A program made the translations under genes and the position numbers. Below, piece after piece: positions 41,348 to 54,074 of a stretch of 64,000 nt of DNA. Every line of letters starts with the position of its first letter. Position 1 is the stretch's first letter. Origin of the DNA: Sphingomonas natans (GTDB lineage Bacteria > Pseudomonadota > Alphaproteobacteria > Sphingomonadales > Sphingomonadaceae); NCBI RefSeq assembly GCF_030546695.1, contig NZ_JAUOTP010000002.1, forward strand, positions 62,001-126,000. The letters are read 5' to 3'. The notes under the pieces are model-generated. The model was not told the origin of the DNA. It searched no databases and saw nothing but the letters and a program-made list of their open reading frames with translations.

Positions 41348-41393
41348 TGGTGCCCCGGGAGAGACTCGAACTCCCGACCTGCGGTTTAGGAAA
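41348..41393 (-). pseudogene. 3' half of a split tRNA-Arg(CCT) gene (attL side)
   Basis: Read on the minus strand, this piece holds the 3' part of the anticodon loop, the anticodon 3' strand ACCGC, the T arm with GTTCGAG, and acceptor CCGGGGC plus ACCA. It has no 5' half here. The missing half, with matching acceptor GCCCCGG, lies at 53935-53973. The two share the 8-bp core TTTCCTAA and together make exactly 77 nt. Confidence 0.9.
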
Positions 41394-41444
41394 ACTGCGC
41401 TCGCGCACGGAATTTCAGTAACTTAGCAGACATCGCAATTTATG

Positions 41445-41462
41445 GGGTAATCAGCAGGGTAA
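41445..41462 (+). repeat. Integrase arm-type repeats, left end
   Basis: GGGTAA occurs at 41445 and again at 41457. The same pair with the same 12-bp spacing and orientation occurs at the right end (53784 and 53796). Arm-type sites of this kind are bound by the N-terminal domain of tyrosine integrases. Confidence 0.6.
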
Positions 41463-41474
41463 CAAAAATTATGA

Positions 41475-41551
41475 TGGTGGTCCCGGAGGGACTCGAACCC
41501 CCGACGCCCACTTTAGGAAAGTGGCGCTCTATCCGGCTGAGCTACGGGACC
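41475..41551 (-). tRNA. tRNA-Arg, anticodon CCT (intact, inside the island)
   Basis: A full cloverleaf is readable: acceptor GGTCCCG/CGGGACC, D arm GCTC/GAGC, anticodon stem CCACT/AGTGG with loop TTCCTAA, variable GCGTC, T arm GGGGG/CCCTC, and an encoded CCA. The anticodon CCT decodes AGG. Stem sequences differ from those of the split gene, so it is not a simple duplicate. It sits 82 bases inside the left core and probably replaces the disrupted host gene. Confidence 0.95.
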
Positions 41552-41616
41552 ACGCGAGGGTGCCTTAGCCCTCCTTACTTGTAGCCGACAACCCTGGGAG
41601 TAGGCGACGGCGGAAG

Positions 41617-41913
41617 CTACTCGATTACCCTCGTTTTGCCCCCCATCGACTCAATCAGGTCGGCTGAACTGACGCCCCACGCCCTTCCCAACGCATCAAC
41701 CTCCGACCTAGAAACCCCGTAACCCATCTCCATCGCTGTAAAGCGACCGGTGGAAATGCCTGTTAATCGCGTTAGCTTCTGGTCGGACGTACATTCTTGC
41801 CTCTGCCATGCGGTGAACCAAAAATCGCCATCCCTTATCGCGCGGGCAACGGGATGATCCGGCGACCATCGCGTCAGGTGCCTTACAACCGGCTTTTCAC
41901 CCTTCCGTCGCAT
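41617..41913 (-). CDS. Small helix-turn-helix protein, XRE-like
   Basis: This 98-residue protein has a segment LTRLTGISTGRFTAMEMG followed by RSEVDALGRAWGVSSADL, which matches the helix-turn-helix layout of Cro/cI proteins. Its start overlaps the stop of the 69-codon gene upstream as ATGA. It is probably a regulator of island functions. Confidence 0.65.
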   Translation of the reverse strand: MRRKGEKPVVRHLTRWSPDHPVARAIRDGDFWFTAWQRQECTSDQKLTRLTGISTGRFTAMEMGYGVSRSEVDALGRAWGVSSADLIESMGGKTRVIE

Positions 41914-42122
41914 CAGAGAAGGGCGAGCTGGCGTCGTGGATCGCAGGCTAAGTTTGTCCCTACCTGCGCGGCCGCTTCTAAAGCTTGGCGATAATGGATC
42001 GTGCCGAACCGTTCGGCCTCTTCGAAGCTAACGGGTGTCCATTCGTTGCTAGGGTAGACGGTTTCGAAAACAGCGCGCGCGGCGGCCCGCATGGTCGGAT
42101 CATGCTGCATCGTATGTCTCAC
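41913..42122 (-). CDS. Small hypothetical protein (69 aa)
   Basis: I do not recognise this protein. It contains ARAVFETVYPSNEWTPVSFEEAE and a helical alanine-rich end. It is coupled to the following HTH gene by a one-base stop/start overlap. The GTG start at 42122 is uncertain, and an in-frame ATG lies at 42110. The island-type small-gene setting suggests a phage-like accessory role. Confidence 0.5.
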   Translation of the reverse strand: MRHTMQHDPTMRAAARAVFETVYPSNEWTPVSFEEAERFGTIHYRQALEAAAQVGTNLACDPRRQLALL

Positions 42123-42192
42123 TGACGATGGCTCGTTGCGAACATAATAGGAACATGCGCGGCGAGTCGGTCAAGCTTAGACTGCCCGCTTC

Positions 42193-42456
42193 CTACTTTT
42201 CGGCTTCGGGTATTCCGTTCGCCAAAGCCGCCACGTCGGCTCCCAGCGCGCGAACAACGTCCGCAAATTCGACTATATCTAGCCTACGCTCGCCACTTTC
42301 GTACCGGGAAACAAATTGCTGATGCCGCCCGATCGATATGGCGAACGCTTCCTGTGATAGCCCCTTGGCCTTCCGCTCATCGATAAGCGCGCTGATCACC
42401 GCCCGGTATCGAGCGTCCTGAAATCCCTTAGCTTTGAAGCCCCGACGCTCTGACAT
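42193..42456 (-). CDS. XRE-family transcriptional regulator (cI/Cro-like)
   Basis: This 87-residue repressor contains a clear helix-turn-helix: LIDERKAKGLSQEAFAISIG, then QQFVSRYESGERRLDIVEFADVVRAL. The gene faces a divergent secreted-protein gene, and the 75-base region between holds a perfect 8+8 palindrome that is its likely operator. It probably controls island maintenance. Confidence 0.88.
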   Translation of the reverse strand: MSERRGFKAKGFQDARYRAVISALIDERKAKGLSQEAFAISIGRHQQFVSRYESGERRLDIVEFADVVRALGADVAALANGIPEAEK

Positions 42457-42482
42457 CGCGCGGCTTGTCGAGGGTATTGAGC

Positions 42483-42503
42483 TTCACACAGAAAGTGTGT
42501 GAA
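42483..42503. promoter_or_regulatory. Operator palindrome TTCACACA-N5-TGTGTGAA
   Basis: This perfect 8+8 inverted repeat with a 5-base spacer lies 27 bases upstream of the XRE regulator start and 28 bases upstream of the divergent gene. It is positioned to control both promoters. Confidence 0.65.
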
Positions 42504-42529
42504 CTAGCCCCTAGCTACCGAAGGGCTAG
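42504..42529 (+). promoter_or_regulatory. Leader hairpin that would cover the ribosome-binding site
   Basis: CTAGCCC at 42504-42510 is complementary to GGGCTAG at 42523-42529, with 12 bases between. The right arm contains the Shine-Dalgarno region immediately before the ATG at 42532, so the folded leader would block initiation. Confidence 0.45.
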
Positions 42530-42531
42530 GA

Positions 42532-42885
42532 ATGGTTTTAAAAGATTGCACGATCCGCGCGGCATTTATGGGCTTGGCCATGTCAGCAGCCGCGCCGACG
42601 TTTGCGTATAATCTGACCAAGGCGATTTTGGAGCCAGATAAGGCTACTTACAGCACGTCAAAGTCCGTGTTCGACGTAGAGCGCTGCCTTCTTGGGCTCG
42701 ACATGGCAGGATCACCGGTTGTCTATCGGTCCCCGGATCGGCCCAATGAAAGCCTATATTATCGCACTACGACGGCGGGCGCAGGCGGCGTCGTGACTTT
42801 AGATCGATCGGGCGATACGACCTACTTCCATTTGAAAACGAAACTACCGGAAGGCGATCGAGCCAAGCTAGCGTCGTGCCAATGA
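42532..42885 (+). CDS. Hypothetical exported protein (117 aa)
   Basis: The N-terminus MVLKDCTIRAAFMGLAMSAA ending APTFAY looks like a signal peptide. The mature part contains a likely disulfide pair (FDVERCLLG and ASCQ at the end) and a beta-rich middle. I recognise no family. It starts after a possible RBS-covering hairpin and overlaps the next gene as ATGA. Confidence 0.65.
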   Translation: MVLKDCTIRAAFMGLAMSAAAPTFAYNLTKAILEPDKATYSTSKSVFDVERCLLGLDMAGSPVVYRSPDRPNESLYYRTTTAGAGGVVTLDRSGDTTYFHLKTKLPEGDRAKLASCQ

Positions 42886-43193
42886 AAGCGAGTGAGAACC
42901 CGTCCACAATCCGGCAATGCCCGCGCTGCCAACAGTGGCACCCAACCGACGGGACCGGATGCGCTCATTGTGATAGAGCCACCGGGATCGTCGCTTTAGA
43001 CGCCGGCAACGAACGGCCCCGGTTGATTCCAAGGAGGCCCTTCGGCAAAGCTTGGCTGTTTCGGGCTTGCGGTCGCGGTTATCGCTACACTGATCGCCCT
43101 TCTTTCCCAATGTCACCCGCGCGGCCACTGGGGCTCCTGTGGCCAGATGAGCCAAACCCGTTCCTGACTAAGGATTGGGGTTTTAATAGTTGA
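42882..43193 (+). CDS. Zinc-ribbon small protein, possibly frameshifted
   Basis: The start overlaps the previous stop as ATGA. CPRCQQWHPTDGTGCAHC near residues 13-30 is a good zinc ribbon. After about residue 50 the reading frame becomes implausible. In the +1 frame the same DNA encodes a membrane helix (GLAVAVIATLIALL) and ends at 43167. The switch point is the codon pair AGG AGG at 43032-43037. Either the gene has decayed by one base, or a +1 frameshift makes a zinc-ribbon membrane protein. Confidence 0.5.
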   Translation: MKASENPSTIRQCPRCQQWHPTDGTGCAHCDRATGIVALDAGNERPRLIPRRPFGKAWLFRACGRGYRYTDRPSFPMSPARPLGLLWPDEPNPFLTKDWGFNS

Positions 43194-43198
43194 GTCGC

Positions 43199-45070
43199 CT
43201 ACCCCTCGATCAAGTTAAGCTCGATCAAATTTTCATCTGCAGCCCGAAGTGATTCTAGTTTGTCACGTAACTCCGAAGCACCTCGCGCGAAGACACCAGC
43301 CATTTCGTTAAATAACCCAGGCGCGTTCGTATGGACAAGCCAGTAGTTGTCTGCCTCATCAATAACCCGATCGTTTATCAGATCGTTAGGGGCGCTAAGT
43401 TGTGAAATCCTTTTTACAAATCTCAATCTCTCTTTTTCAGGCAGCCTTGACCTCACCTCGTTAAGATGATCCTTAGAGTTAAACAAAAGCTTTTGCGAGA
43501 GAAACTTTGTCGAGTTGAGCTTATAGTAGCTTCCAAGCTGCATGCACTCAGTTCCCAGCGTCTCGATACCGAATCCATCGACCTGACCATCTCTTGAAAC
43601 ATAAAGACGACGACACAGCTTTAGAATGATCATCCCCGGGTTTTCAACAAACGCCCGATCACTAAATAACGAAGTCATTTTCTCGAGGGTCGGCAGGCCC
43701 CACAATTTATCGACCATCCTCGGTGCCATTTCCTTCAGAATGGCTCCGGCACTTTCGGTAGAGCTCTTAAGCATTAAAGCGGCTACATACTCGACTGCTT
43801 TGTCGCCTCTGTATTCGGATACGAATAGCGCGGCAAAATATTCTTGAAACGACCTGTGTACGAAGGTATACAAGAGGCCATCTTCCTGCATAATACATAC
43901 GCTTTCGATAAGGTCTTTGAGGACCGCGCTGGGAGACGCTGAAAGCGAGCAATACTTTAGCGATTTTTCAATCCTGGATATAATTTCGAGCCTCGAAAAA
44001 GCATATTTATTGTTTGCATAGGTCGCAAAGCAGAACGCTGAAAAGAAGTTTCTAAAATCGTCCACGCTGATCGCGCTATAGCGCTTCCGCTCATAAACTC
44101 CTTTAGATAGATCATGTTTAAAAAATAGAGTTTCGAACGCTTGGTCGTAAAATATATATATCTTGTCGCCCGAATCCGCAAACTGATCATAACGCAACAG
44201 CATAATAGTTGCCAAAAGCGGATTAGTGAGGAAGCTTTTATGCTTATCATACAGAAAGCTGCTAAGGTCCTTTAGGAATTTTGCCTTTATAGTTTTGTCG
44301 AACTCTATTTTCTTTATAACTGATGTAACCTGCCTTTTATCGAGCGGCAGCACATTAAAGCACGCGAATTGCGCCCAGCCGTTAAGGCCGCTATCCTCTC
44401 TTGAGGAGATGATGAGAATATTGTCAGGATACCTTACAGGAAACTTTCCTATTTCCCGGTAGACAGATTCCCTATGCAAGGGGTCGACCTCGTCAAGACC
44501 GTCCAGAATTACAAGAAAAAGTCCGGATATAAGCCCCTTCTCGAATTGCTCGAATGTCAGTCTACTTTTCTTGGAAGCAGAGTCTTCGAAGATCAGTCGC
44601 TCAAATGATTTCTCGCTCCCATAGCTCAGAGTTCGCAGCTCTATAAAGAGCGGTATCCTGCCCCTCGGATTTTCGAAGCGGCAAAGAGCAAGATATTTCA
44701 TAAACATTGTTTTACCAGAGCCTCCAGAGCCCTGAATAATAACATTCTTATACTCTTCTAGATTCTCAATAAGGTAGTTATCGGTAACCTTGGATCGCCG
44801 CTTTTGGAGTTTTATCGAGACATACTGGGAGAGAAGCTCGACTGACTCTTCACGATATATCAGCGTTTTTACTTTATAGCATTTTTCAAACGTCGTTTGG
44901 AGGTGGTGCCCGAAGCCGATACCAAGTGCCGTAGCAACCTTCTCCGGCGTACGCCTGACCTGGTCCCCAATTTGCGAGGCGATTTTGGGAGCGGACGCAG
45001 CTAGGGCCTTGCCAATAACTGCTTGCGCATCAAAATGGCTAAGAGCATCCACGAGCGACTTTGCCACCAT
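43199..45070 (-). CDS. NACHT-domain STAND NTPase, probable anti-phage protein
   Basis: This 623-residue protein has a helical N-terminal region (about residues 1-100), then a NACHT NTPase. Walker A is GSGGSGKT at 114-121, Walker B LVILDGLDEVD at 186-196, sensor-like IISSRED at 220-226, LTNPLLATIML at 281-291 and the NACHT-end motif FVHRSFQEYFAA at 403-414. A C-terminal domain of some 200 residues without clear repeats follows. Bacterial NACHT proteins of this size act as NLR-like phage sensors. The gene is AT-rich compared with the chromosome and stands alone, consistent with single-gene defence. The trigger and killing activity are unknown. Confidence 0.88.
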   Translation of the reverse strand: MVAKSLVDALSHFDAQAVIGKALAASAPKIASQIGDQVRRTPEKVATALGIGFGHHLQTTFEKCYKVKTLIYREESVELLSQYVSIKLQKRRSKVTDNYLIENLEEYKNVIIQGSGGSGKTMFMKYLALCRFENPRGRIPLFIELRTLSYGSEKSFERLIFEDSASKKSRLTFEQFEKGLISGLFLVILDGLDEVDPLHRESVYREIGKFPVRYPDNILIISSREDSGLNGWAQFACFNVLPLDKRQVTSVIKKIEFDKTIKAKFLKDLSSFLYDKHKSFLTNPLLATIMLLRYDQFADSGDKIYIFYDQAFETLFFKHDLSKGVYERKRYSAISVDDFRNFFSAFCFATYANNKYAFSRLEIISRIEKSLKYCSLSASPSAVLKDLIESVCIMQEDGLLYTFVHRSFQEYFAALFVSEYRGDKAVEYVAALMLKSSTESAGAILKEMAPRMVDKLWGLPTLEKMTSLFSDRAFVENPGMIILKLCRRLYVSRDGQVDGFGIETLGTECMQLGSYYKLNSTKFLSQKLLFNSKDHLNEVRSRLPEKERLRFVKRISQLSAPNDLINDRVIDEADNYWLVHTNAPGLFNEMAGVFARGASELRDKLESLRAADENLIELNLIEG

Positions 45071-45459
45071 TTATTTGCCTTTCTTCGCGAACCAGCCTCC
45101 GCCCGCTGACAGAGATACGGAATTTGAACGAGACCGCCTAGGTCTGCAAGCGACGACGATCGAGATGCATGTCTCGGAGTCATGCCGTGGCGCTATCGAA
45201 ATTTGGTGGGCCGCTCCGAACGATTTTGAGCCGTGCTAGCGTGCATCCGCTGTCTCGTCTCTCGCTGACCACTACTAAGCCTCGTCAGAAAGAACTTTCG
45301 CCTCCACATTGGTGCGCAAAGAGCTCAACGCCCGATAAGCGCTTCGCGTCTAATCTTAGACGCCTAGCGACGCCGTTGGGCATTGTCCCTCCCGCCTTCG
45401 TCTTCCGAACCTCACCCCACCGGTTCGGACGTCACCGTCCCTTTTCCGGCCGCCCGCCC
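45071..45459. other. 389-bp region with no supported gene
   Basis: This region lies upstream of the NACHT gene and downstream of the DUF4236 gene. It should include the NACHT promoter. A plus-strand frame crosses it but its composition is poor. I see no RNA gene or strong repeat. Confidence 0.35.
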
Positions 45460-46095
45460 CTAGGACTGCCCGCCCGTTGCGCCCTGCTGTCGGCAGAAGG
45501 CATCCAACCCTCTTGCATTGTTCGTGGTCCGAAGTGCGATAGCCGTCTCCCGAGCTTGGGGGCTGAAATCCTCGATTTCGCGCTTGAACCAGTCCCATAC
45601 GCGATCGACCGGGCGGCGGTCTGGTGCGAGGGGTGCAGGGTTCGACGGGATCGCTTCTTTCGGTGTCGGCCGATGCGGCCGGTCTGACGCGGCAGCTTGC
45701 AGTCTCACTACCAACGCGCTGATCAGTGCTATCACCGACAGCGCCGCTGGTACGATGACCAAGACTTTAATAAACGTATCGTTATTGTAAAATAGCACCA
45801 GCGAAAACAAGCCGCTTATAAGGCAGTATAATGACGAGCGACCTACGTCATCTACTCGATTTTCCCGATATGACGCTGGCTTGACGATTGGCTTCGCAGG
45901 ACTAACGACCGGCTTCGCTAAATGACTGTACGATATACCTGACCCGGGGATGCCGACGGTGGTGCGCACGCCCTTCTTGGATACGTTTACGGTAGCGCCC
46001 TTGGTTCCGATACTGGTGGAGACACCCGACTTGGAAAGGTTGACGCGGACTCCCGGCATGATCCGAACAGACTTGCGAAAGCGAAAATTCCCCAC
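45460..46095 (-). CDS. DUF4236 membrane protein
   Basis: This 211-residue protein starts GNFRFRKSVRIMPGVRVNLS and continues SKSGVSTSIGTKGATVNVSK, the diagnostic DUF4236 beta-rich domain. Two hydrophobic helices follow near residues 90-140 (LYCLISGLFSLVLF and VLVIVPAALSVIALISALVV) and then a Pro-rich cytoplasmic tail. The GTG at 46095 is preceded by GGGAGGGA. The family has no settled function and is often found in mobile elements. Confidence 0.85.
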   Translation of the reverse strand: MGNFRFRKSVRIMPGVRVNLSKSGVSTSIGTKGATVNVSKKGVRTTVGIPGSGISYSHLAKPVVSPAKPIVKPASYRENRVDDVGRSSLYCLISGLFSLVLFYNNDTFIKVLVIVPAALSVIALISALVVRLQAAASDRPHRPTPKEAIPSNPAPLAPDRRPVDRVWDWFKREIEDFSPQARETAIALRTTNNARGLDAFCRQQGATGGQS

Positions 46096-46200
46096 TGGTC
46101 CCTCCCCCAAGAGCGCCACAGCTTTTGCCTACGTTCCCGTTACGAGTCGAGCCGCCGGCCTGTCTCACGCTTACAAGTTTTGAACCTACCCGGATTTGGA

Positions 46201-46265
46201 GATACCGATCCTCCAAAAGATACTAGTTGGCGTTGTGAGCCTGTCTCACTAAGATACAGTATCTT
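46201..46265. repeat. AAGATAC repeats upstream of the serine recombinase (possible res site)
   Basis: GATAC occurs at 46201, AAGATAC at 46217, and a perfect palindrome AAGATAC-A-GTATCTT at 46251-46265. Ordered subsites directly upstream of a resolvase-type gene are typical of its crossover or operator site. Confidence 0.55.
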
Positions 46266-46288
46266 TCGAGTCGCTTAAGGATCGCGAT

Positions 46289-46864
46289 ATGAGCCGCATT
46301 CTGTATCTACGTTGCTCCACCGCCAGCCAGAGCGTGGAAGCGCAACGGCAAGCCCTAGGCGGCAACTTCGATCGCGAGTTCGTGGACGAGGGGATCAGCG
46401 GTGCCACAATGGCAGCAGATCGCCCCGGCTTCGCCGCGTTGCTCTCTTATATACGAGAAGGCGACCAACTCGCGGTCTATGCCTTGGACCGGCTAGGACG
46501 TGACGCCCTCGATGCGCAGGCAACCGTTAGAAAGCTGCTGAACATGGGCGTTACGCTCGACGTTCATGGCCTTGGCCCCATCGGCAAGGGGGTGGGCGAA
46601 CTAATCGTCGCAGTCTTGGCGCAGATCGCGGACATGGAACGCCAGAGGATCAAAGAGCGCTGCGATAGCGGACGCGCGGCAGCAAAAGCGTCCCTAGCCG
46701 CCACAGGTCGGACCCATCGGGGTAAGGTCAGCCTAGGCAGACCGATGGCAGCGGACGCCAAAGCGGTTGTGGCGTGGCGTAGAGAGAACAAGGCCAGCAT
46801 ATCGCAGACGATGGTGAAGTTCGGGATTAGCAAGGCGACGGTAGCTAGGTATTGCGCGGGCTAG
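46289..46864 (+). CDS. Serine recombinase (resolvase/invertase family)
   Basis: This 191-residue enzyme begins MSRILYLRCSTASQSVEAQR, with the catalytic serine in RCSTASQ. The conserved DRLGRDALD and a long helix around QIADMERQRIKERCDSG complete the catalytic domain. The C-terminal helix-turn-helix is SISQTMVKFGISKATVARY. It may resolve, invert or move part of the island. Target-like repeats lie immediately upstream. Confidence 0.92.
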   Translation: MSRILYLRCSTASQSVEAQRQALGGNFDREFVDEGISGATMAADRPGFAALLSYIREGDQLAVYALDRLGRDALDAQATVRKLLNMGVTLDVHGLGPIGKGVGELIVAVLAQIADMERQRIKERCDSGRAAAKASLAATGRTHRGKVSLGRPMAADAKAVVAWRRENKASISQTMVKFGISKATVARYCAG

Positions 46865-47042
46865 CGGCCCGCCGCCCACAGCCTTCGAAGGGCAGAGTCT
46901 TAGATTTTGCCAGGTATGGCCGATACGGCCCCTTTTCAGTTGGCTGTTTGATTTAGGTAACCTCACACAAGTGATAATCATAAATAGAACACTAAATGAT
47001 GCTGGCGCCTTATCAAAAGCAGACAAATAATGCACGGCATAA

Positions 47043-47056
47043 TGTTAATTATAACA
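47043..47056. promoter_or_regulatory. Small inverted repeat TGTTA-ATTA-TAACA
   Basis: This AT-rich 5+5 inverted repeat lies in the 286-base gap between the recombinase and the next gene, about 95 bases before its start. It is a possible operator or part of the promoter region. Confidence 0.3.
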
Positions 47057-47150
47057 GTAATGTCCAAGCTATAGAACAAAAAGCTGTTGTCAGCCGAGAT
47101 TTTGGCGCTAATGGGGGCTCCGGCGCGCTTCTTCGCGCAGGAGACTGACA

Positions 47151-47576
47151 ATGATGATGCATGAAATCCGCCCGATCAATAATGATGTATTCGAGCATAT
47201 CGCATATGATCTGGTGGACGCCAGTGGTAAACACTCTCTCTTTGGGGTTGATGAGCCTACCAGAGCCTTGTTCGTAAGTCGCACTATCGCGCGATTTAAC
47301 GAGTTGCTTCTTGGCGAAGAGTTTGTGCGAATGACTCGCACGCGGCTCTCCGCTTTCAGCGATTTTCTCGATCAGGCGGACCTACCCCGGCAGTTTCGTA
47401 TTGCGGTCAAGGTGCCGGGCAACTTCACTAAGGCAGAGGTGCGCGAGGCATTTAGTAAGGCGCTTGCAGAGAATGTGACTAATGGGACGCCTGTGCTGGT
47501 CGGTGACGAGGAAAGTTCATCCGTTATCGCCGACCTCTTGAACGGCGAAGAGTACCAGCCCTCTAGAGCCGCGTAG
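47151..47576 (+). CDS. Hypothetical protein (141 aa)
   Basis: I do not recognise this protein. It is soluble, mixed alpha/beta and without signal peptide, with the segments LFGVDEPTRALFVSRTIARFNE and EVREAFSKALAENVTNGTPV. AGGAGA lies seven bases before the ATG, and two more in-frame ATG codons follow immediately. It is convergent with the polymerase-like gene, with about 35 bases between their ends. Confidence 0.65.
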   Translation: MMMHEIRPINNDVFEHIAYDLVDASGKHSLFGVDEPTRALFVSRTIARFNELLLGEEFVRMTRTRLSAFSDFLDQADLPRQFRIAVKVPGNFTKAEVREAFSKALAENVTNGTPVLVGDEESSSVIADLLNGEEYQPSRAA

Positions 47577-47611
47577 CCGATCGTGTTTGCTGTAGGAGGG
47601 GGCAACCCCTC

Positions 47612-48946
47612 CTACTTGGTCTTGACTCGGACGAGGACGCCTGCATGTTCGCAGAAAGCTTGGATCATAACACGCCCTACAAGCGCTGCTTTCGAAGCCG
47701 GGACGATAACTGAGTCATGCAGAGGGAGCGCCGGTATCCCATGCCGGAACGCCAGTTCCTCTAGGGTAGCAATGAGCCCAAGGCTCTCCCGGTATTGGAG
47801 GTCCGCCCATGTGAAGCCGCTATCCTGCCATTTTAGCAGGATCGGCAGTGCCTTCACGACGGCGGCCTTCACCATAGCGAACGGGTAGTCCCGTTGAAGC
47901 CGTGATAGCTCTTCTGTGGTGTAGTCCCAGTCCTTCTTTCTAATCCCGAATTCACGTTTCAGGTAGTCGATCTTTGACCCTTTGGGCCATTGCCGGGGTA
48001 TCTTCCCCGCCCCCAAGGTGGCCGTCACGAACCGCTTCACCACGTTCCGGTTATCTATCCCCGAACCTGCATATAGATCGTCCACGTCGGGCAACGGTAT
48101 GCCGAGAAGATGGTAGGCGATGGTCAGGTGACTGGCTGACACGTCCACTTCGCACACCCGCTCCCCATTAATGCGGATGCCCGGTCGTTTTTCTCGTTCC
48201 ATGTTCTGGAAGTTGCCGATCGCATAGACTCGGCCACCTTTGTCATACCGGCCTTGGTTGAACTGGCGGAAAAAGCCTTCAAAGACGCAACCGGTGAAAA
48301 CGTGCCGCGCGACGAAGCCGTTAAGCCCCTGCATCTGGTAGACCAAGGACTCCACCCTAGGGTCAGCCATATCGATAGGAAGGCGCCTCCCCCTAAGCGG
48401 ATGCCAGAAATCGCTCTTCTTGGATGCCCTAAGCCTGACCGGATCACGAACCTGATCGGGGCTACCGGTGATGAACCGGAAGTGATCCCCATAGTTGGAA
48501 GGAGTGATGCCATACCCAAGCAGAAACTCGAATAGGGCTCGTGTTCCCTTCATGCGGGCTGCGGTGCCGTCGCCACCATCCTCCCGACGGGAATAGAAGC
48601 CTAGCTTGACCTCAATGAACCCCGCGTCCCTAAGTCCTTTGAAAACCCGGATAAAAGGACTGTAACCGATATAGCATCCCTTGAAGGAGGGCTTATGCAA
48701 TGAGCGAAATAGGGATGAACCATCCTTCTTTGAAGCCAATCCTAAAAGGTCATTGAGGAACGACTCCAATGCCTTCCTTGTTTTCAGTGAATTATATTCC
48801 CATTCTTGATTCTGTTTTAAGAGTGAGAAAAGTCTGTCAACAGACTCATTCGCAATCAACGAGATAGCCTTACCGCTTAACAATAGGCCATCATCACTAT
48901 AGTCTCTTTCTATAAGGTTTGAGCCACTATTTAATAATACAGACAT
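47612..48946 (-). CDS. Polymerase-like protein with motifs A, B and C (single-subunit/family A type)
   Basis: This 444-residue protein has an N-terminal part with a winged-helix-like stretch (YSPFIRVFKGLRDAGFIEVK, residues 95-114). The C-terminal half carries an ordered motif set: GRVYAIGNFQNM (238-249), EVDVSASHLTIAYHL with Asp268 (motif A-like), R300-x3-K304 in RNVVKRFVTATLGAGK (motif B-like), and LPLHDSVIVP with His410-Asp411 (motif C-like). In T7 RNA polymerase and family A DNA polymerases the same order supplies the two catalytic aspartates and the fingers lysine. It is far shorter than those enzymes and has no exonuclease domain. I infer a minimal replicase or template-dependent polymerase; the alternative is a replication initiator of unrelated fold. 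Confidence 0.6.
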   Translation of the reverse strand: MSVLLNSGSNLIERDYSDDGLLLSGKAISLIANESVDRLFSLLKQNQEWEYNSLKTRKALESFLNDLLGLASKKDGSSLFRSLHKPSFKGCYIGYSPFIRVFKGLRDAGFIEVKLGFYSRREDGGDGTAARMKGTRALFEFLLGYGITPSNYGDHFRFITGSPDQVRDPVRLRASKKSDFWHPLRGRRLPIDMADPRVESLVYQMQGLNGFVARHVFTGCVFEGFFRQFNQGRYDKGGRVYAIGNFQNMEREKRPGIRINGERVCEVDVSASHLTIAYHLLGIPLPDVDDLYAGSGIDNRNVVKRFVTATLGAGKIPRQWPKGSKIDYLKREFGIRKKDWDYTTEELSRLQRDYPFAMVKAAVVKALPILLKWQDSGFTWADLQYRESLGLIATLEELAFRHGIPALPLHDSVIVPASKAALVGRVMIQAFCEHAGVLVRVKTK

Positions 48947-49000
48947 GATATGTGTATCTATCTCTCTTTCCCTGTAGTTAACTGGTACCGTTTTTGTAAA

Positions 49001-49207
49001 TTAGCGATATTCCGCCATATTGCCGGCGCAGGTGAGCAGGAGGGTATAGGCCTCGTCTAGATCGGGGCATTCATAGAGTGGGGTAGAAGGCCGCTCCATG
49101 ATGTAGCGAACGTCACCGGCCAGCTTGGTTAGCTTCTCTGCGTTGGCACGGCACTCGTCACGTTCCCGTTGTAGGCGAGCATTCTGAAACTTAGATAAAT
49201 CAGTCAC
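49001..49207 (-). CDS. Small coiled-coil hypothetical protein (68 aa)
   Basis: This small charged protein begins MTDLSKFQNARLQRERDECR, a likely coiled coil, and ends near CAGNMAEYR. The GTG start has GGAGA eight bases upstream. It lies 54 bases upstream of the polymerase-like gene on the same strand, so it may be cotranscribed and act with it. No family is recognised. Confidence 0.6.
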   Translation of the reverse strand: MTDLSKFQNARLQRERDECRANAEKLTKLAGDVRYIMERPSTPLYECPDLDEAYTLLLTCAGNMAEYR

Positions 49208-50017
49208 TTAAATCTCCATAAGGCACACGTTTCCCCGGCTCGCCGTAGGGGTTCGCCGCGTTCATTAGGTCGAAAATGGGGACGCCCCCTCCCTTCCGGC
49301 GTCCACGGAAGGAAAGGGCCATGCAGGCATCGCTGACTGCAAACTGCCTCTAGCGTAGTATTCGCAGGGGGAAAAGCCTTTGAGGTTGCAGTTACTTCAG
49401 TGCGGATTGAGGTTCTGGGACGTTAAGGTAACTATAAGAAAAGTTTATAAGATTAGACGCTTTTGATGTTAAGGCCGATCTATTCTCGTTTATAATACGA
49501 CAGTTTTTAACAAAGCAGGGAAAACCTCGCAGCGCGATGCGGTGACGGAGAACCTATTTAAGCTCACACGTGCGAAGACTGTGTTATGTGAATAATACAG
49601 AGGCGATTGAACGTTGGCGATGGGAAGCAATCTGCGTGTGCTACTAATACGCGGATATGCAGTACCGTTTATGCTTAGCTCCAAAGCGAACGTTGCATTG
49701 AACCGGACACCGGGAATCCGAGGCTCACAGCTTCCACCGTTGCGAATGGGGCGCAGCAGGTTGCGGGCGTTCAGAAACGGGGAAAGATGCTGGCGCTTCA
49801 ACCGGCTCGCCGATCGATCACGCAATCAACCGTCTGCCTGTAAGGGCGGAGTGGATCGGATGCGGGGGAGGTCCAGCAGGGAGCAGGGCATCCGCTCCGA
49901 AGTGCTAACATAGCGAAGGGATTAGTTCCGTCTTGGACCAACCATTAACCATACACCCGACTTTACAAGCTGATAGCCCACCGCCATTGCGTTTGGGTTA
50001 TCTCGGGGGGGGGCTTC
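49208..50017. other. 810-bp gene-poor island region
   Basis: This AT-richer stretch lies between two divergent transcription units. Overlapping frames on both strands near 49490-49913 have no ribosome-binding site or coherent composition. The last 60 bases form the leader of the first PEP-CTERM gene, matching the leader of the second. Confidence 0.4.
49960..50017 (+). repeat. Duplicated leader of PEP-CTERM gene 1, with G9 tract
   Basis: The stretch starting ACTTTACAA and continuing GATAGCCCACCGCCATTGCG is shared almost base for base with the leader of the second PEP-CTERM gene at 51038-51094. It ends in nine consecutive G directly before CTTC and the start codon. Confidence 0.75.
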
Positions 50018-50731
50018 ATGAAAATTGGGTTGATGATCGCGGCAAGCGTTGCTGCGATGGTAGCTGGTACGGCAGATGCCGCCGTGATCCTGCTCAACAG
50101 TGTCGGAACGATCACATCGGCTGGCGCTTCATTTAGCGGTTTCCAAGGCCCGTATTCGAGCAGCGATCCTCAATTAGGGGATGATATTCGTCTTCAGGTG
50201 AGGCTCGATACGGACTCCGAGTTGCTCTCGGGATCAGCGGCATTTTGCTGTGGCAATTATAAACTAGAAAATGCCTCATTTCAGCTCACGGTCGGTGGCA
50301 AAACATATGACTATGGCTCTGACGGTAACCTATACATCTCGAACAATGTCCCTCTGTCACCCCAAGTTCCGACCCTTGACCAAATCTATTTGAGCTTGGG
50401 TGCTGCTTCAGGAATGAACCCGACGCCGTTTAACTTTGGCGATTCGCCATCAATATTTCTGTATCTCGTACAGTTCGATCCGACTGCAACGGCTCTTCCT
50501 GATGCCGACATGTCCCATCTTCCGCTCGGGCAATCGGCTTTCGCGTCACAAAAACTGACCTTCTCTGCATTCAGTTTGTATACTTACCAGATCGAGTCCA
50601 ACAATATGCAGACGACGCTTTCACTGGAAAACGCCGTCCCCGAGCCCGCTACGTGGGCGATGTTCATCGGCGGGTTCGGCTTGATTGGAGCGGCGATGCG
50701 GCGGCGGAAGGTCCGGGTGGCGTTTGGCTGA
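50018..50731 (+). CDS. PEP-CTERM sorting-domain secreted protein 1
   Basis: This 237-residue exported protein has the signal peptide MKIGLMIAASVAAMVAGTADA and a beta-rich body. The C-terminal sorting signal is VPEPATWAMFIGGFGLIGAA followed by RRRK. PEP-CTERM proteins are processed by an exosortase and are linked to extracellular polysaccharide in sphingomonads. No exosortase gene is in this window. The ribosome-binding site is a G9 run. Confidence 0.92.
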   Translation: MKIGLMIAASVAAMVAGTADAAVILLNSVGTITSAGASFSGFQGPYSSSDPQLGDDIRLQVRLDTDSELLSGSAAFCCGNYKLENASFQLTVGGKTYDYGSDGNLYISNNVPLSPQVPTLDQIYLSLGAASGMNPTPFNFGDSPSIFLYLVQFDPTATALPDADMSHLPLGQSAFASQKLTFSAFSLYTYQIESNNMQTTLSLENAVPEPATWAMFIGGFGLIGAAMRRRKVRVAFG

Positions 50732-51011
50732 GACTGTAAGAGGCTCGCACATCGGGATCGCGAAGTGGATCGCTGGCCTTGGGCTGGCGCTGGCGGGCAG
50801 TGCCCTGCAAGGTCAACCTCTCAACTATGGCAACCCAAACTACTGCTACGATCCTGCCCGATATTACGAGGAAGGGGTGACCAAATGCCCCAGTAAGAAG
50901 CCGGTGACCCGCCCTCGCAAGATCAAAACCAATCTCGATATACGGCGAGAAGCGATTGCGGCTTTCGAAAAGGAGGAGGCTGTGAAAGCGTCGGTCACGA
51001 AGCGCCGATAA
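50724..51011 (+). CDS. Hypothetical exported protein (95 aa)
   Basis: The probable TTG start overlaps the end of the PEP-CTERM gene. The N-terminal hydrophobic segment AKWIAGLGLALAGSALQGQ looks like a signal peptide, followed by NYGNPNYCYDPARYYEEGVT and a basic tail. The family is not recognised. The start is uncertain because no ATG precedes the signal segment. Confidence 0.5.
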   Translation: MAETVRGSHIGIAKWIAGLGLALAGSALQGQPLNYGNPNYCYDPARYYEEGVTKCPSKKPVTRPRKIKTNLDIRREAIAAFEKEEAVKASVTKRR

Positions 51012-51037
51012 AACCCTTAAAAAATGCCATATCGCCC

Positions 51038-51094
51038 ACTTTACAATCCGATAGCCCACCGCCATTGCGCCCTGATATCTATATGGGGGGCTTC
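51038..51094 (+). repeat. Duplicated leader of PEP-CTERM gene 2, with G6 tract
   Basis: This is the copy of the leader at 49960-50017. The block from ACTTTACAA to CCGCCATTGCG is nearly identical, the middle has diverged, and the G-run before CTTC-ATG has six bases instead of nine. Confidence 0.75.
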
Positions 51095-51694
51095 ATGAAG
51101 ATTGGACGGATGATCGCGGCGAGCGTAGCTGCGCTGACGATGGGTGCTTCACAGGTCGATGCGACCACCTACGTCAAATACACGCTGACGGGGGATGCAT
51201 ATTTGGTTCTCAATCAGGGTCCCGATCCAAGCGCCACGGCGAAAATCTACAACGTTGAATTTAACTATTATACGAACTCAGATGTTGGTCCCTCTTCTTT
51301 CCTGCTTTACGATAGTTCCAGCAGCCAATATGTCTCGACAAGCCTTACTGAAAGTTCGTTTTCAGTTTCGGCAACCAGTTCTGCTGGCAGCACGACTGTT
51401 TTAGCGAGCGCGAGCGGCGGCCAACCTTCGGTGGATAATCTGCCGTTTTATGACACTTTGATAAGCGGCACGCTTTCTCAAAGCAGCCATACCGGCAACC
51501 CCGCCTTTACGCTCCGGACGATTTCGACCGCGTTCTCTGCAACATCATTCACTGGTCTTAGCGCGCCGTCAGTCAGCACGGTTATTTCCGCAGCAAGCGT
51601 TCCCGAACCGGCAACATGGGCAATGTTCATAGGTGGCTTCGGTATGATCGGTGCAGGGATGCGTCGCCGCAAGGTCAGCGCCAGCTTCGCCTAA
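51095..51694 (+). CDS. PEP-CTERM sorting-domain secreted protein 2
   Basis: This 199-residue paralogue of the gene about 1 kb upstream has a signal peptide starting MKIGRMIAASVAALTMG, a Ser/Thr-rich beta body and the C-terminus VPEPATWAMFIGGFGMIGAG with RRRK. The start at 51095 matches the first copy and its leader, so the 10-codon upstream extension is rejected. Conserved ends with divergent middles suggest an old tandem duplication. Confidence 0.9.
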   Translation: MKIGRMIAASVAALTMGASQVDATTYVKYTLTGDAYLVLNQGPDPSATAKIYNVEFNYYTNSDVGPSSFLLYDSSSSQYVSTSLTESSFSVSATSSAGSTTVLASASGGQPSVDNLPFYDTLISGTLSQSSHTGNPAFTLRTISTAFSATSFTGLSAPSVSTVISAASVPEPATWAMFIGGFGMIGAGMRRRKVSASFA

Positions 51695-51937
51695 CGCGAT
51701 AGTATCTTTGCAAAGGCCATGGGTCGGGGCGGAAGGGTAGCGATCACTTCCGTCCCGTCTTTTGAACGATCAAGATACCGCGCAGACCGCCTTACGGCGG
51801 AGCAAGTGAAGCCAACTTCGATTGGCGCTGACACATTGGTCGCCACGCACGATAGATCGCTAGAATGCCCTATGAGAGCCGCAAGTCAAATTGCGCGGTG
51901 GTTGCGGGCAGAAGCTCGTTCCGCGGCCCTACGGGCC

Positions 51938-52100
51938 TTAAAACGGCTCTGATGCCATATTTTGCGCGCTCGAAAGGATCGGGCTAAAATCTACGCCATC
52001 GAACCGCACGTTTGCCATCATTTCTGAAAGGCGTTTAATCGTGCCCTGCCGAACGCTTCCGTAACCGGCGGTAACGCTAATTTGGTTATGGCCTAGGACA
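51938..52100 (-). pseudogene. C-terminal remnant of a second tyrosine integrase
   Basis: The encoded end HTVLGHNQISVTAGYG, then KRLSEMMANVRFDGVDFS, is the typical final segment of tyrosine recombinases (LGH box, then the Tyr nucleophile in GYG). Nothing of the catalytic Arg or HxxR part is present. The frame continues upstream only into the 3' end of the alpA gene. A deletion probably fused the two. Confidence 0.7.
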
Positions 52101-52290
52101 GTATGGTCGCCAGTTGCGGGTCGCGATCCGCCAGCCAACGCTCAACCACCGAAGCGCGCCAAGCGATCCGATTGACGCTTAGCCTCAACGGCGGCGGGAA
52201 GGCGCCCACTCGGCGCATCCTATGGAGAGTAGCCCGCGAGAGGTTCAGCGCGCGGCACACTTGTGCTTGCGATAGCATAAAGTCGTTCAT
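52093..52290 (-). CDS. AlpA-family excisionase/regulator
   Basis: This 65-residue helix-turn-helix protein includes LSQAQVCRALNLSRATLHRM followed by GAFPPPLRLSVNRIAWR, the AlpA signature of phage and island excisionases. GGCGGGA stands before the ATG at 52290, and longer starts at 52305 and 52308 are possible. It probably controls island excision together with the integrase encoded upstream. Confidence 0.85.
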   Translation of the reverse strand: MNDFMLSQAQVCRALNLSRATLHRMRRVGAFPPPLRLSVNRIAWRASVVERWLADRDPQLATILS

Positions 52291-52407
52291 AATCAATCCC
52301 GCCATCAAGTCATTCGGCCCTGAGTGGCCGGCGGGGTGACCATTTATAGACGGGATCGCGCCGTGGCAACCGTTACTCTTGCGGTTATGGCACCTCTACT
52401 TTCGAGA

Positions 52408-53751
52408 TTACTTCCCATCTTGCATTGTATGTTTGGTACCGGACTCCGATGGCTCCCTGGGAGCTAGCTTTGCGATATGTGTCGACCAAATTTGCAAAGC
52501 TTCCCGCTTCTGTTCTGCGTACTCGTAGCGATCGTAGACGCCGGCCACACCGGCTTTGGAAGCGCCGGATACGTGATTCAGCAGCGCCTCTAATAAGTCG
52601 GTTGTAAGAACGTGATTCAAGCGCTGGCGATGGCCGATCGCGCGCAGTCCCGTTCGAAAGCTGCGGCGTAGATCGTGAGCTGACCAACGCTCCAAGGCGT
52701 AGCCGTCCGCAGCAGCGATATGTCGCGTCCTAAGCCAAAGCACCTCCTGCGCTTTTGAAACGCTATTGAAGCACCTGCGCGGTTCGAGAGAACTCGGGAA
52801 AACCCAAGGCGATTTCGCTGCCGACTTCGCGACTTTGAGCCGGTAAATGACGCTCTCGGGCAACGTCAGCAGGAAGGGCCGATGATTTTTTGTTCGCTCG
52901 CTCGGGATCAGCCAAGTCCGCTCATCCAGATCGAATTCCGACCACACAGCCTCTCTTGCTTCGGAAATACGGACTCCCGTATCCAACACGAGCCTCGTTA
53001 TCGAGGTATAGGTGCGAACGTAAGACTTGGCGCCTGCGAGGCTATCGATCGCTTGCAGAAAATAGGCTAGCTCCCTGTCGTCCAAAACTCGCTCTCGGGT
53101 GGCCTGCGTATGGAGCCTAGGAAGGTATTCGGCAGGGCTAACTTTCAGGCCCGTCACAGCTCGAAGCTCCCGCGCGGCTCGCTTGAACATCGTTTTCGTC
53201 AAGCTTAGCAGTCGATTGCTTACGGCGGGTGCGCGGCCGAACACGTCCTCCACGATGGCCGCCAGATCGTCATGCTCGATATCGAATATGCAAGTCGAGC
53301 CAAGCGACGCCCTTAGATGGCTGTCGTAAAGGCGACGGGTCTCGCGCTTATCGCGAAGGCGTTCGACGTAGCGTGGGTCGTAATACGTATCCCAGAACCA
53401 GTTCAGAGTTTTTGTCTGGCGCTCTTCCAGAAGATCACGCTGCCGCGTCTCTTCGACTGCCTTGGCCTGGCGGTCGTCATCTAGATCGACCCCACGTTCC
53501 CGAGCCTGACGATGACCAATTGCCCATTCCCTCGCCTCGGCCAAAGAATGTGCTGGATAGCTTCCGAAGGTTTTTTTGACAGGTCGCTTCGTGACGGCGT
53601 GACGACCGCGATAGGCCCACGATTTCTTGCCGTTAGGCTGCACGATTAGCAGCAGGCCAGGGCACCCCGGATCGCCAATCTCCCGGCGTGCATCTGCCGC
53701 TTTTTCACTGTCCACCGAACGCGCGGTGAACGCCCTTGCCGCTGCCATCAA
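52408..53751 (-). CDS. P4-type tyrosine integrase of the island
   Basis: This 447-residue integrase has an N-terminal arm-binding domain (GDPGCPGLLLIVQPNGKKSW, GSYPAHSLAEAREWA), a core-binding domain, and a catalytic domain with Arg in DTGVRISEARE, HDLRRSFRTGL (HxxR) and Tyr in AGVYDRYEY. It lies 183 bases from the right attachment core, the usual place for the integrase. Target-site use in the anticodon loop of a tRNA is known for tyrosine integrases. Confidence 0.94.
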   Translation of the reverse strand: MMAAARAFTARSVDSEKAADARREIGDPGCPGLLLIVQPNGKKSWAYRGRHAVTKRPVKKTFGSYPAHSLAEAREWAIGHRQARERGVDLDDDRQAKAVEETRQRDLLEERQTKTLNWFWDTYYDPRYVERLRDKRETRRLYDSHLRASLGSTCIFDIEHDDLAAIVEDVFGRAPAVSNRLLSLTKTMFKRAARELRAVTGLKVSPAEYLPRLHTQATRERVLDDRELAYFLQAIDSLAGAKSYVRTYTSITRLVLDTGVRISEAREAVWSEFDLDERTWLIPSERTKNHRPFLLTLPESVIYRLKVAKSAAKSPWVFPSSLEPRRCFNSVSKAQEVLWLRTRHIAAADGYALERWSAHDLRRSFRTGLRAIGHRQRLNHVLTTDLLEALLNHVSGASKAGVAGVYDRYEYAEQKREALQIWSTHIAKLAPREPSESGTKHTMQDGK

Positions 53752-53783
53752 ACCCTCGAATCAGAGCACAGTTTCGCGTCTCA

Positions 53784-53801
53784 GGGTAATCAATGGGGTA
53801 A
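53784..53801 (+). repeat. Integrase arm-type repeats, right end
   Basis: GGGTAA occurs at 53784 and 53796 in the same orientation and with the same 12-bp spacing as the left-end pair at 41445 and 41457. Confidence 0.6.
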
Positions 53802-53934
53802 CAGACGCACAAGACAGCCTGCGGCCGGCCAAGACCGAATGCAACAGCTTAGACCCACGATCTTATTGTGATTATTAGATTTAATATGTGATTTCCTGTC
53901 TCATCCCGTGTCGGCCGGTGCCAGCTAACGAGAC

Positions 53935-53973
53935 TTAGGAAACCGTTGCTCTGTCCTGCTGAGCTACCGGGGC
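53935..53973 (-). pseudogene. 5' half of the split tRNA-Arg(CCT) gene (attR side)
   Basis: Read on the minus strand: acceptor GCCCCGG, TA, D arm GCTC/GAGC, anticodon strand ACGGT and loop TTCCTAA with anticodon CCT. Beyond the core, the island sequence GTCTCG cannot pair with ACGGT, so no functional tRNA is formed here. The matching 3' half lies at 41348-41393. In the rejoined molecule only the outermost anticodon-stem pair (A-C) is mismatched. Confidence 0.9.
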
Positions 53974-54074
53974 CAGGCCACGCACACGCCGATCGCGGCG
54001 GAGCGGGCGGCGTCGCCTTAGCCGGTCCTGCCGATCGAGGACAAGCCGCGAGGGCTCGGCATCGAGTCCTCGGG

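Follow-up and report, generated by a model that had tools for sequence, protein, structure and literature searches.

A 444-residue protein, very probably a family A-type polymerase, encoded on a tRNA-integrating island of Sphingomonas natans

A 64,000-nucleotide stretch of a Sphingomonas natans contig (NZ_JAUOTP010000002.1, positions 62,001 to 126,000), referred to here as the window, holds a gene that raises two questions: what kind of enzyme is its 444-residue product, and for what would a genomic island use it? An earlier note on this DNA had proposed a minimal single-subunit polymerase, and in its main point that proposal is supported by the predicted fold and by the conservation of D268 and K304. 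The product of the island gene is very probably a reduced enzyme that copies DNA or RNA, from a group known in transposons and phages. The reading that we prefer, with a probability of roughly 0.55, is that of a minimal family A polymerase (the Pol I/T7 RNAP superfamily), belonging to the TV-Pol/divPolA2 group, which replicates a tRNA-integrating mobile element.

The features on which the argument draws are the following.

41348 to 41393, minus strand: 3' half of the host tRNA-Arg(CCT), the left border, whose inner end carries the 8-bp core TTAGGAAA; in genome G672 the two halves are contiguous
41386 to 53942: island of about 12.55 kb, delimited by the split tRNA borders and by G+C content
41475 to 41551, minus strand: complete second tRNA-Arg(CCT) inside the island, from sequence comparison
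46211 to 46270: inverted repeat CTCCAAAAGATA / TATCTTTCGAG, a candidate res site, just upstream of the resolvase gene
46289 to 46864, plus strand: small serine recombinase of the resolvase/invertase type, 191 aa (Pfam Resolvase, 1.8e-26)
47612 to 48946, minus strand: putative family A-type polymerase (TV-Pol/divPolA2 group), 444 aa, from motifs, alignment and predicted fold
52093 to 52308, minus strand: AlpA-like regulator, 71 aa, candidate excisionase (Pfam Phage_AlpA, 3.2e-8)
52408 to 53751, minus strand: tyrosine integrase with an arm-binding domain, 447 aa (Pfam Phage_integrase, 2.2e-14; Arm-DNA-bind_3, 4.7e-13)
53935 to 53979, minus strand: 5' half of the host tRNA-Arg(CCT), the right border; the halves are contiguous in G672

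The two tRNA halves share an overlap of 8 bases, TTAGGAAA, which falls in the anticodon loop. In the same-genus genome G672 the halves are contiguous, the joined sequence being identical to the intact gene of that genome, and among six relatives, five had an intact tRNA-Arg(CCT) in the locus that was fetched. The G+C content of the island (41394 to 53934) is 0.538, compared with 0.684 in the rest of the window. The earlier description of a non-plasmid island is borne out: the island is real and chromosomal, and it splits tRNA-Arg(CCT). The split falls at the anticodon loop, the border is not rebuilt, and the island carries a different complete copy. This copy shares 99% identity with the tRNA that a second species of the genus (G674) has at the corresponding locus. 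From this comparison, the second tRNA-Arg(CCT) at 41475 to 41551 is probably a replacement for the split gene.

Other genes on the island include one clear Cro-type regulator, a DUF4236 protein and two PEP-CTERM proteins (Pfam); the last two, at 50018 to 50731 and 51065 to 51694, have similar leader DNA (repeats D1 and D3) and apparently represent a duplication within the island. A NACHT NTPase of 623 residues (43199 to 45070) gave weak matches to the anti-phage families DS8 and PDC-S60, with DEAD below the cutoff at 0.0072, and is probably island cargo for defense. Of 45 resolvases, 5 had the motif of the inverted repeat at 46211 to 46270 upstream in both orientations and 9 had any copy of it there, with 4 of 45 in the downstream control; with five loci and a weak control behind it, the assignment of this repeat as a res site is a weak one. 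Outside the island, an open reading frame of 684 codons (59418 to 61472) contains the C-terminal part of a tyrosine recombinase and is probably a chromosomal Xer-like gene whose frame is overlong.

The polymerase gene is an uninterrupted frame on the minus strand, with an ATG start and 444 codons before the stop. All four motifs that had been reported for its product were located in the order claimed: GGRVYAIGNFQNM begins at residue 237, EVDVSASH at 266 (with Asp268), RNVVKR at 300 and LPLHDSVIVP at 407 (with Asp411). The likeness to T7 RNA polymerase (RNAP) was confirmed in that protein's own record, where GRVYA (424), RSVTKR (627) and HDSFG (811) follow in the same order. A winged-helix-like region spans residues ~30 to 150 and the palm and fingers residues ~196 to 444, the key residues being R239, D268, R300, K304, H410 and D411.

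Library searches returned almost nothing for this protein. No family of Pfam, NCBIfam or PADLOC matched it at an E value of ≤1, phmmer against the PDB gave no match at an E value of ≤10, and two profile searches of the PDB with the family found no polymerase. Pfam DNA_pol_A (PF00476) did not match the window protein, nor any of the 20 members of alignment A1 at an E value of ≤0.5. The single library match was PHROG 4756 (E value of 1.5e-22), which is annotated as function unknown and is matched by 20 of 20 members of A1.

Of 296 genomes from the same order, 21 carry a relative, as does 1 of 7 from the same genus (the genome of the window being included in each count), and a phylum-wide sample of 398 genomes gave 24, again with the window's genome counted; 23 of these 24 belong to the same class. 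With tblastn, 35 phage records were recovered when the window protein was the query and 266 when the query was the phage relative AUR84708, together with 2 plasmid records, and a scan of viral contigs with P0001 alone gave no match. Many Vibrio phages, including ICP1, encode a relative that is annotated merely as a hypothetical protein. A pattern search of contigs produced 348 matches, 291 of which encode relatives, and 80 of these 291 confirmed loci were used; having been gathered with the narrower alignment A4, they lean to a GGRFYGGWW branch and not to that of the window, which was covered by the separate genome search in the same order. The window protein, 80 proteins from contig loci and 45 from viral contigs make up an alignment of 126 proteins. 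In building alignment A5, matches above 1e-30, proteins shorter than 330 residues, duplicates and then L065 (775 aa) were left out, giving 126 of 127; for alignment A6, 3 of the 126 rows were dropped for their length and, from the remaining 123, a further 13 as viral near-duplicates. In a FastTree phylogeny of 135 proteins, the window protein fell into a group of 10, all from its own bacterial family, with a support of 0.998. Two contigs each carry paired copies of the polymerase family a few kilobases apart (L179, 9809 to 11488 and 15602 to 17350; L056, 3087 to 4397 and 7816 to 8835).

Relatives at 19 to 33% identity repeat the motifs of the 444-residue protein in unchanged order, and for this reason the motif set is not a product of chance. 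Eight positions (G238, R239, R254, D268, K304, H410, D411 and M427) are invariant in the 126 rows, and three more are nearly so (R300 and Y292 in 124 of 126 each, D290 in 123 of 126). Because the fetched rows had all been retrieved through a handful of peptide patterns with GR or HD in them, the conservation of G238, R239, H410 and D411 was partly selected for; that of D268, R254, R300, K304 and M427 lies outside this selection. Position 273, five residues after the motif A aspartate, is His in 105 rows, Gln in 11, Asn in 5 and Gly in 2 of the 126, and position 412 is Ser in 121 of 126, giving the HDS of motif C. Variation beyond this alignment comes from AUR84708, which is outside the 126 rows and has Glu at motif A +5, where the window protein has His273, and FDE where the window protein has HDS. 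H410 is therefore not universal, and the family is mixed at both motif A +5 and motif C.

An AlphaFold2 model based on the 126-sequence alignment had a pLDDT of 80.2 and a pTM of 0.75, with low confidence for residues 1 to 28 and parts of 155 to 195 and 320 to 360. A fold prediction without a palm domain would have counted against the polymerase reading; what the predicted model contains is a family A palm and fingers, on which Foldseek and VIA-align agree. All 50 Foldseek matches listed (of 55 in the PDB at an E value of ≤0.001) are family A DNA polymerases, the best at 2.8e-5, with TM-scores of only 0.22 to 0.30 and a whole-chain rmsd above 12. VIA-align, which is a second look at structures from Foldseek's list and not at folds absent there, superposed model residues ~160 to 444 on the yeast mitochondrial RNAP (Z of 13.0, rmsd of 4.2, 244 aligned), Taq (Z of 12.8, rmsd of 3.9, 215 aligned) and T7 RNAP (1h38; Z of 12.7, rmsd of 4.0, 241 aligned); these scores are a tie. 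In the model, D268 ends the strand 262 to 269 and D411 lies in the turn between strands 407 to 409 and 412 to 416, a predicted placement as expected of motifs A and C. Strands 222 to 229 and 237 to 244 form a β-hairpin carrying R239 (126 of 126 rows, with GR in two of the search patterns), and in the thumb region, where TV-Pol proteins have two antiparallel helices, the helix 196 to 213 is confident and much of 155 to 195 is of low confidence. Among viral models in BFVD the best match was from Aeromonas phage 4L372D (5.9e-20), followed by a protein of Rheinheimera phage Barba31A that is named DNA polymerase (1.2e-18).

Profile comparisons gave weak sequence evidence for superfamily A. Among 321 open reading frames from Pol I loci and part of T7, profile A5 reached an E value of ≤1 for 11, all of them Pol I (11 of the 20 Pol I proteins in the set, at 0.013 to 0.8), and profile A1 found no Pol I in the same set and one other open reading frame at 0.04. 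By hhalign, GGR/QN/DYS stood in register with TGR/QNIP/DYSQIELR of Pol I at an E value of 0.0042 and a probability of only 8%, and motif C with HDSF of T7 RNAP at 0.037; the unrelated controls gave 0.17 (integrase) and 0.47 (resolvase). T7 gp5, compared as a single sequence, gave an E value of 0.22, a match that is meaningless.

A protein with this fold might nevertheless be a decayed, inactive polymerase that keeps its fold only and serves perhaps as a DNA-binding initiator. The low-confidence modeling of parts of residues 155 to 195 and 320 to 360 would fit such decay, as would the possibly vestigial RRM cores noted by Rice (2023, PMC10061031) in some pairs, but D268 and K304 are invariant across 126 rows that are 19 to 28% identical to the window protein, and we regard decay as highly improbable. 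We infer polymerase activity for the 444-residue protein, and family A chemistry follows from the presence of D268, D411, R239, R300 and K304.

The protein belongs to no new kind: it falls in with TV-Pol, a published group, and the profile of its family matches divPolA2 over nearly its full length. TV-Pol proteins, for which primase and polymerase activities were predicted, have 400 to 600 residues (Iyer, Abhiman and Aravind 2008, PMC2579912), and the earlier impression of an unusually small polymerase does not hold, 444 residues being usual for the group. Like TV-Pol, the window protein is a minimal superfamily A core with two aspartates, a hairpin arginine and a fingers RxxxK motif and without an exonuclease (PMC2579912). 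The predicted RRM-like palm carries D268 and D411, each in 126 of 126 rows (D411 being partly selected for), the hairpin arginine corresponds to R239 (126 of 126), and the fingers residues correspond to D290 (123 of 126), R300 (124 of 126) and K304 (126 of 126), the choice of D290 as the fingers aspartate being our own. Part of the TV-Pol family is fused or linked to a D5-like helicase, the subset with an N-terminal domain being exempt (PMC2579912); unlike the helicase-linked members, the window island has no D5-like helicase recognized by Pfam among its 16 open reading frames. The N-terminal domain of TV-Pol was predicted to be all-helical (PMC2579912), whereas that of the window protein models as a winged helix with strands. 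As an indirect proxy for TV-Pol we used gp030 (506 aa) of Ma-LMM01, a published TV-Pol phage, picked by its size and adjacent transposases within 50 kb of the 162-kb genome. The sequence link is weak: gp030 aligned in register with the family by hhalign (E value of 3.8e-4), and by hmmsearch it ranked first of 172 open reading frames with A1 (0.0028) and second with A5 (0.13) after a short open reading frame (0.12). This Microcystis phage protein (L225, 22746 to 24266), which two transposases adjoin, aligns at motifs A and B and has IHNS at the place expected for motif C.

As for divPolA2, profile A5 aligned to AUR84708, the protein modeled as divPolA2, at 142.6 bits over residues 21 to 423 of 430, and A1 matched it at 99.8 bits. 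The BFVD match to Rheinheimera phage Barba31A also speaks for homology to the divPolA2 proteins of barbaviruses and Vibrio phages. According to Yutin et al. (2024, PMC11348598), divPolA2 has a palm without the Pol I thumb or exonuclease and an N-terminal domain of its own, features in which the window protein resembles it; the N-terminal domain together with palm and fingers uses up the 444 residues, so there is no 3' exonuclease. The two differ in that divPolA2 occurs in phages beside a regular DNA polymerase (PMC11348598), whereas the window gene lies on a chromosomal integrative island, and in having Glu and FDE (AUR84708) compared with His and HDS. A literature search for divPolA2 recovered only Yutin et al. 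2024 and its preprint. The main text of that paper names TV-Pol once, in the Background, and the link between TV-Pol and divPolA2 thus seems not to be drawn in it.

The report of Yutin et al. (PMC11348598) leaves both DNA repair and RNA synthesis possible for divPolA2. A single-subunit RNA polymerase might transcribe island or phage genes or might make RNA primers only. Several likenesses to T7-like RNA polymerases point that way: the palm fold (Z of 12.7 to 1h38), with mitochondrial and T7 RNAPs among the best VIA-align rows, the shared GRVYA and RxxxKR motifs, the HDS of motif C (Ser in 121 of 126) and the lack of Glu at motif A +5 in the window protein. Yet DNA polymerases tie in Z score and fill the Foldseek matches listed. 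By counting from D268, His273 sits where Pol I has Glu710 and T7 RNAP has Gly542, and it is bulkier than that glycine; in the phage protein AUR84708, both the Glu at +5 and the FDE are of the DNA polymerase type. The motif spacing of the window protein (29/32/107) is also nearer to that of Pol I (37/49/125) than to that of T7 RNAP (112/90/181), from which it differs further in length (444 versus 883 residues) and in an N-terminal part that models as a winged helix. DNA polymerase I (PF00476) shares the palm and fingers fold, the motif order and this nearer spacing, but the window protein lacks its Pfam match and its exonuclease and has HDS for HDE and His at motif A +5. We consider an RNA polymerase unlikely.

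For the role of a DNA-copying enzyme, the company of its gene is informative. In 60 loci, within about 10 kb around the polymerase, an integrase was present in 53, a resolvase in 37, both in 34 and neither in 4. These loci are 12 genome stretches and those 48 of the 80 contig loci that are at least 20 kb long, with related loci all counted, and these contig loci also supplied the models of integrase and resolvase, so that the 53 and 37 count families found there. None of 20 control stretches of 19.9 kb, at hand-chosen coordinates in ten of the genomes that supplied the 12 stretches, contained either family, which shows only that these families are not everywhere. The counts agree with the company of resolvases, integrases and transposases reported for the N-domain subset of TV-Pol; TV-Pol genes occur on alphaproteobacterial mobile elements with an adjoining gamma-delta-type resolvase and phage-type integrase (PMC2579912). 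Among the 54 integrase-bearing loci, 33 had a tRNA gene no more than 1 kb from the integrase (the window is included in the 54 and is not among the 33). The window resolvase shares 70 to 76% identity with its five best matches, every one of them encoded next to a related polymerase, and the polymerases of those loci are 26 to 37% identical to that of the window; judged by this unequal conservation, the two modules look as if they had different histories.

Clustering of neighbors in 81 loci by linked BLAST matches recovered integrases in 65 and resolvases in 33 and no other broad family, so no conserved operon partner emerged from these loci. The next clusters were sets of short open reading frames in 16 and 12 loci, the 16-locus set being always antisense to and overlapping the polymerase. 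Those clusters in 10 or fewer loci that were scanned with Pfam comprised type III and type I restriction-modification genes, an ABC transporter, a KdpD-like kinase and three without a name. Type III and type I restriction-modification genes directly adjoin polymerase relatives at L141 (5742 to 9862) and L128 (4978 to 10027). When 123 of 245 neighboring open reading frames, lying within 2 kb and called by a crude length rule, were scanned with Pfam, no family occurred in more than 4 of the 123, ResIII being first, and no replicative helicase or SSB-like gene recurred among them. With integrase and resolvase recurring and other neighbors scattered (restriction-modification genes are the most frequent of them), the polymerase seems to belong to the core of these elements and not to their cargo.

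The same neighborhoods bear on whether the polymerase could be part of an anti-phage defense module of the island. The NACHT NTPase with its weak matches to anti-phage families, the type III restriction-modification genes beside relatives (of 81 loci, 10 have the methylase cluster and 7 that of the restriction subunit) and the mention of defense as a possibility for PolA-SSB by Rice (2023, PMC10061031) would agree with such a part. Against it, no PADLOC family matched any of 20 family members at an E value of ≤0.01, the commonest companions are integrase and resolvase, and phages carry the family; a defense role appears very unlikely.

One relative is found in especially small surroundings. 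At L252 (8936 to 13121), about 4.1 kb are enclosed by a pair of predicted tRNA-Arg(CCG) genes with 57 identical bases in common, and this stretch contains an integrase, the polymerase and otherwise only open reading frames that are shorter than 100 residues or antisense to those two. It is probably an integrative element.

The closest biochemical precedent is CcPol of SCCmec, a TV-Pol by the assignment of Iyer et al. (2008). In complex with MP, CcPol can prime DNA synthesis in vitro from dNTPs (Bebel et al. 2020, PMC7581432), a finding that Rice (2023, PMC10061031) extended to PolA-SSB pairs of Bacillota. Like these systems, the window protein is a stand-alone family A domain, and the integrative element that carries its gene also encodes a serine recombinase (PMC7581432, PMC10061031). 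CcPol, as described by Bebel et al. (PMC7581432), retains E710 and F762 of Pol I, has an OB-fold partner and shares its operon with a helicase, none of which was found for the window protein; Thr308, four residues after K304, stands where CcPol and Pol I have Phe, as determined by counting and not from an aligned structure. The Pfam scan of 16 island open reading frames gave no replicative helicase, Rep or SSB family over the cutoff. A small coiled-coil gene just upstream had been suggested to encode a partner. This open reading frame, the nearest small one to the polymerase, does exist (49001 to 49207, minus strand, 68 aa, GTG start), but tblastn at an E value of <1e-3 found no relative of it in the fetched loci of polymerase relatives, and on that ground it was set aside as an MP-like partner.

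Modeled alone, the N-terminal segment (residues 28 to 200) reached a pLDDT of 81, and a separate N-terminal domain is confident in the models. It resembles the winged-helix proteins MarR, PadR, CodY and S19e, with a Foldseek E value of 0.007 at best and VIA-align Z scores up to 6.5, which are not outstanding for so common a fold, and no T7-type N-terminal domain was among the 50 matches listed for it. The winged-helix-like N terminus of the earlier note thus receives modest support.

The integrase and resolvase company suggests that the polymerase helps to copy the island's own DNA. Work on the element's DNA after excision is what the gene context argues for, and priming or extension at an origin would be its simplest form. 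We propose a cycle in which the tyrosine integrase and the AlpA-like protein would excise the island from tRNA-Arg(CCT), the winged-helix-like domain would bring the polymerase to element DNA, and the polymerase would lay down or extend a primer on a single-stranded template. R239 would contact the template strand, R300 and K304 would act in the fingers, and D268 and D411 would hold two metal ions. A host helicase and Pol III would complete the circle, and the serine resolvase would separate multimers before the circle reintegrates. Observed are the predicted fold, the conserved catalytic residues, the island borders and the recurrent integrase and resolvase. The priming or replication role would follow by analogy with the TV-Pol literature and with the 4.1-kb relative, and it is purely our conjecture that the N-terminal domain may recognize an origin, that a host helicase may be used and that multimers may be resolved. 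Several findings count against this reading: no helicase or SSB-like gene was recognized, whereas CcPol needs MP to prime; His273 and Thr308 stand where CcPol keeps E710 and F762 of Pol I; motif C is HDS, like that of T7 RNAP, in place of HDE, which leaves room for RNA synthesis; and both the sequence evidence for superfamily A and the Foldseek TM-scores are weak. Barbaviruses with divPolA2 have a separate PolB (PMC11348598), so the family need not be replicative there.

The missing partners would be less of a difficulty for a polymerase that fills gaps or repairs DNA without priming, for example by synthesizing the second strand after single-stranded DNA transfer. No SSB or helicase partner was recognized on the island or near relatives, Yutin et al. 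(PMC11348598) suggest repair for divPolA2, and second-strand synthesis after transfer is what Rice (2023, PMC10061031) suggests for PolA-SSB primases. The L252 stretch, which keeps the polymerase with little besides an integrase, speaks instead for a basic role in the element cycle, and we think gap filling improbable. Replication of the excised element by a family A primase-polymerase of the TV-Pol/divPolA2 group remains the reading that we favor. A bolder version of it, which we hold only tentatively, is a one-protein replication starter, in which a winged-helix origin-binding domain joined to a family A polymerase with His at the steric-gate position and an RNAP-like HDS motif C would initiate without an SSB partner or a helicase of its own and would let elements down to 4.1 kb, with hardly more than integrase and polymerase, replicate. 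If true, it would be a type of primase apart from DnaG, AEP and PolA-SSB.

Two things are less ordinary than the enzyme itself: its branch lacks a recognized helicase or partner, and one relative sits on a very small element. The family is widespread (24 of 398 genomes of the phylum sample and 266 phage records with the divPolA2 query) but without a name in Pfam; the polymerase motifs of the earlier note are a true set, in a protein for which curated libraries name nothing. TV-Pol of mobile elements and divPolA2 of phages appear to be one protein family described by two literatures. With the 4.1-kb element of the relative there is a clean system for learning if DNA synthesis can be started by a family A polymerase on its own.
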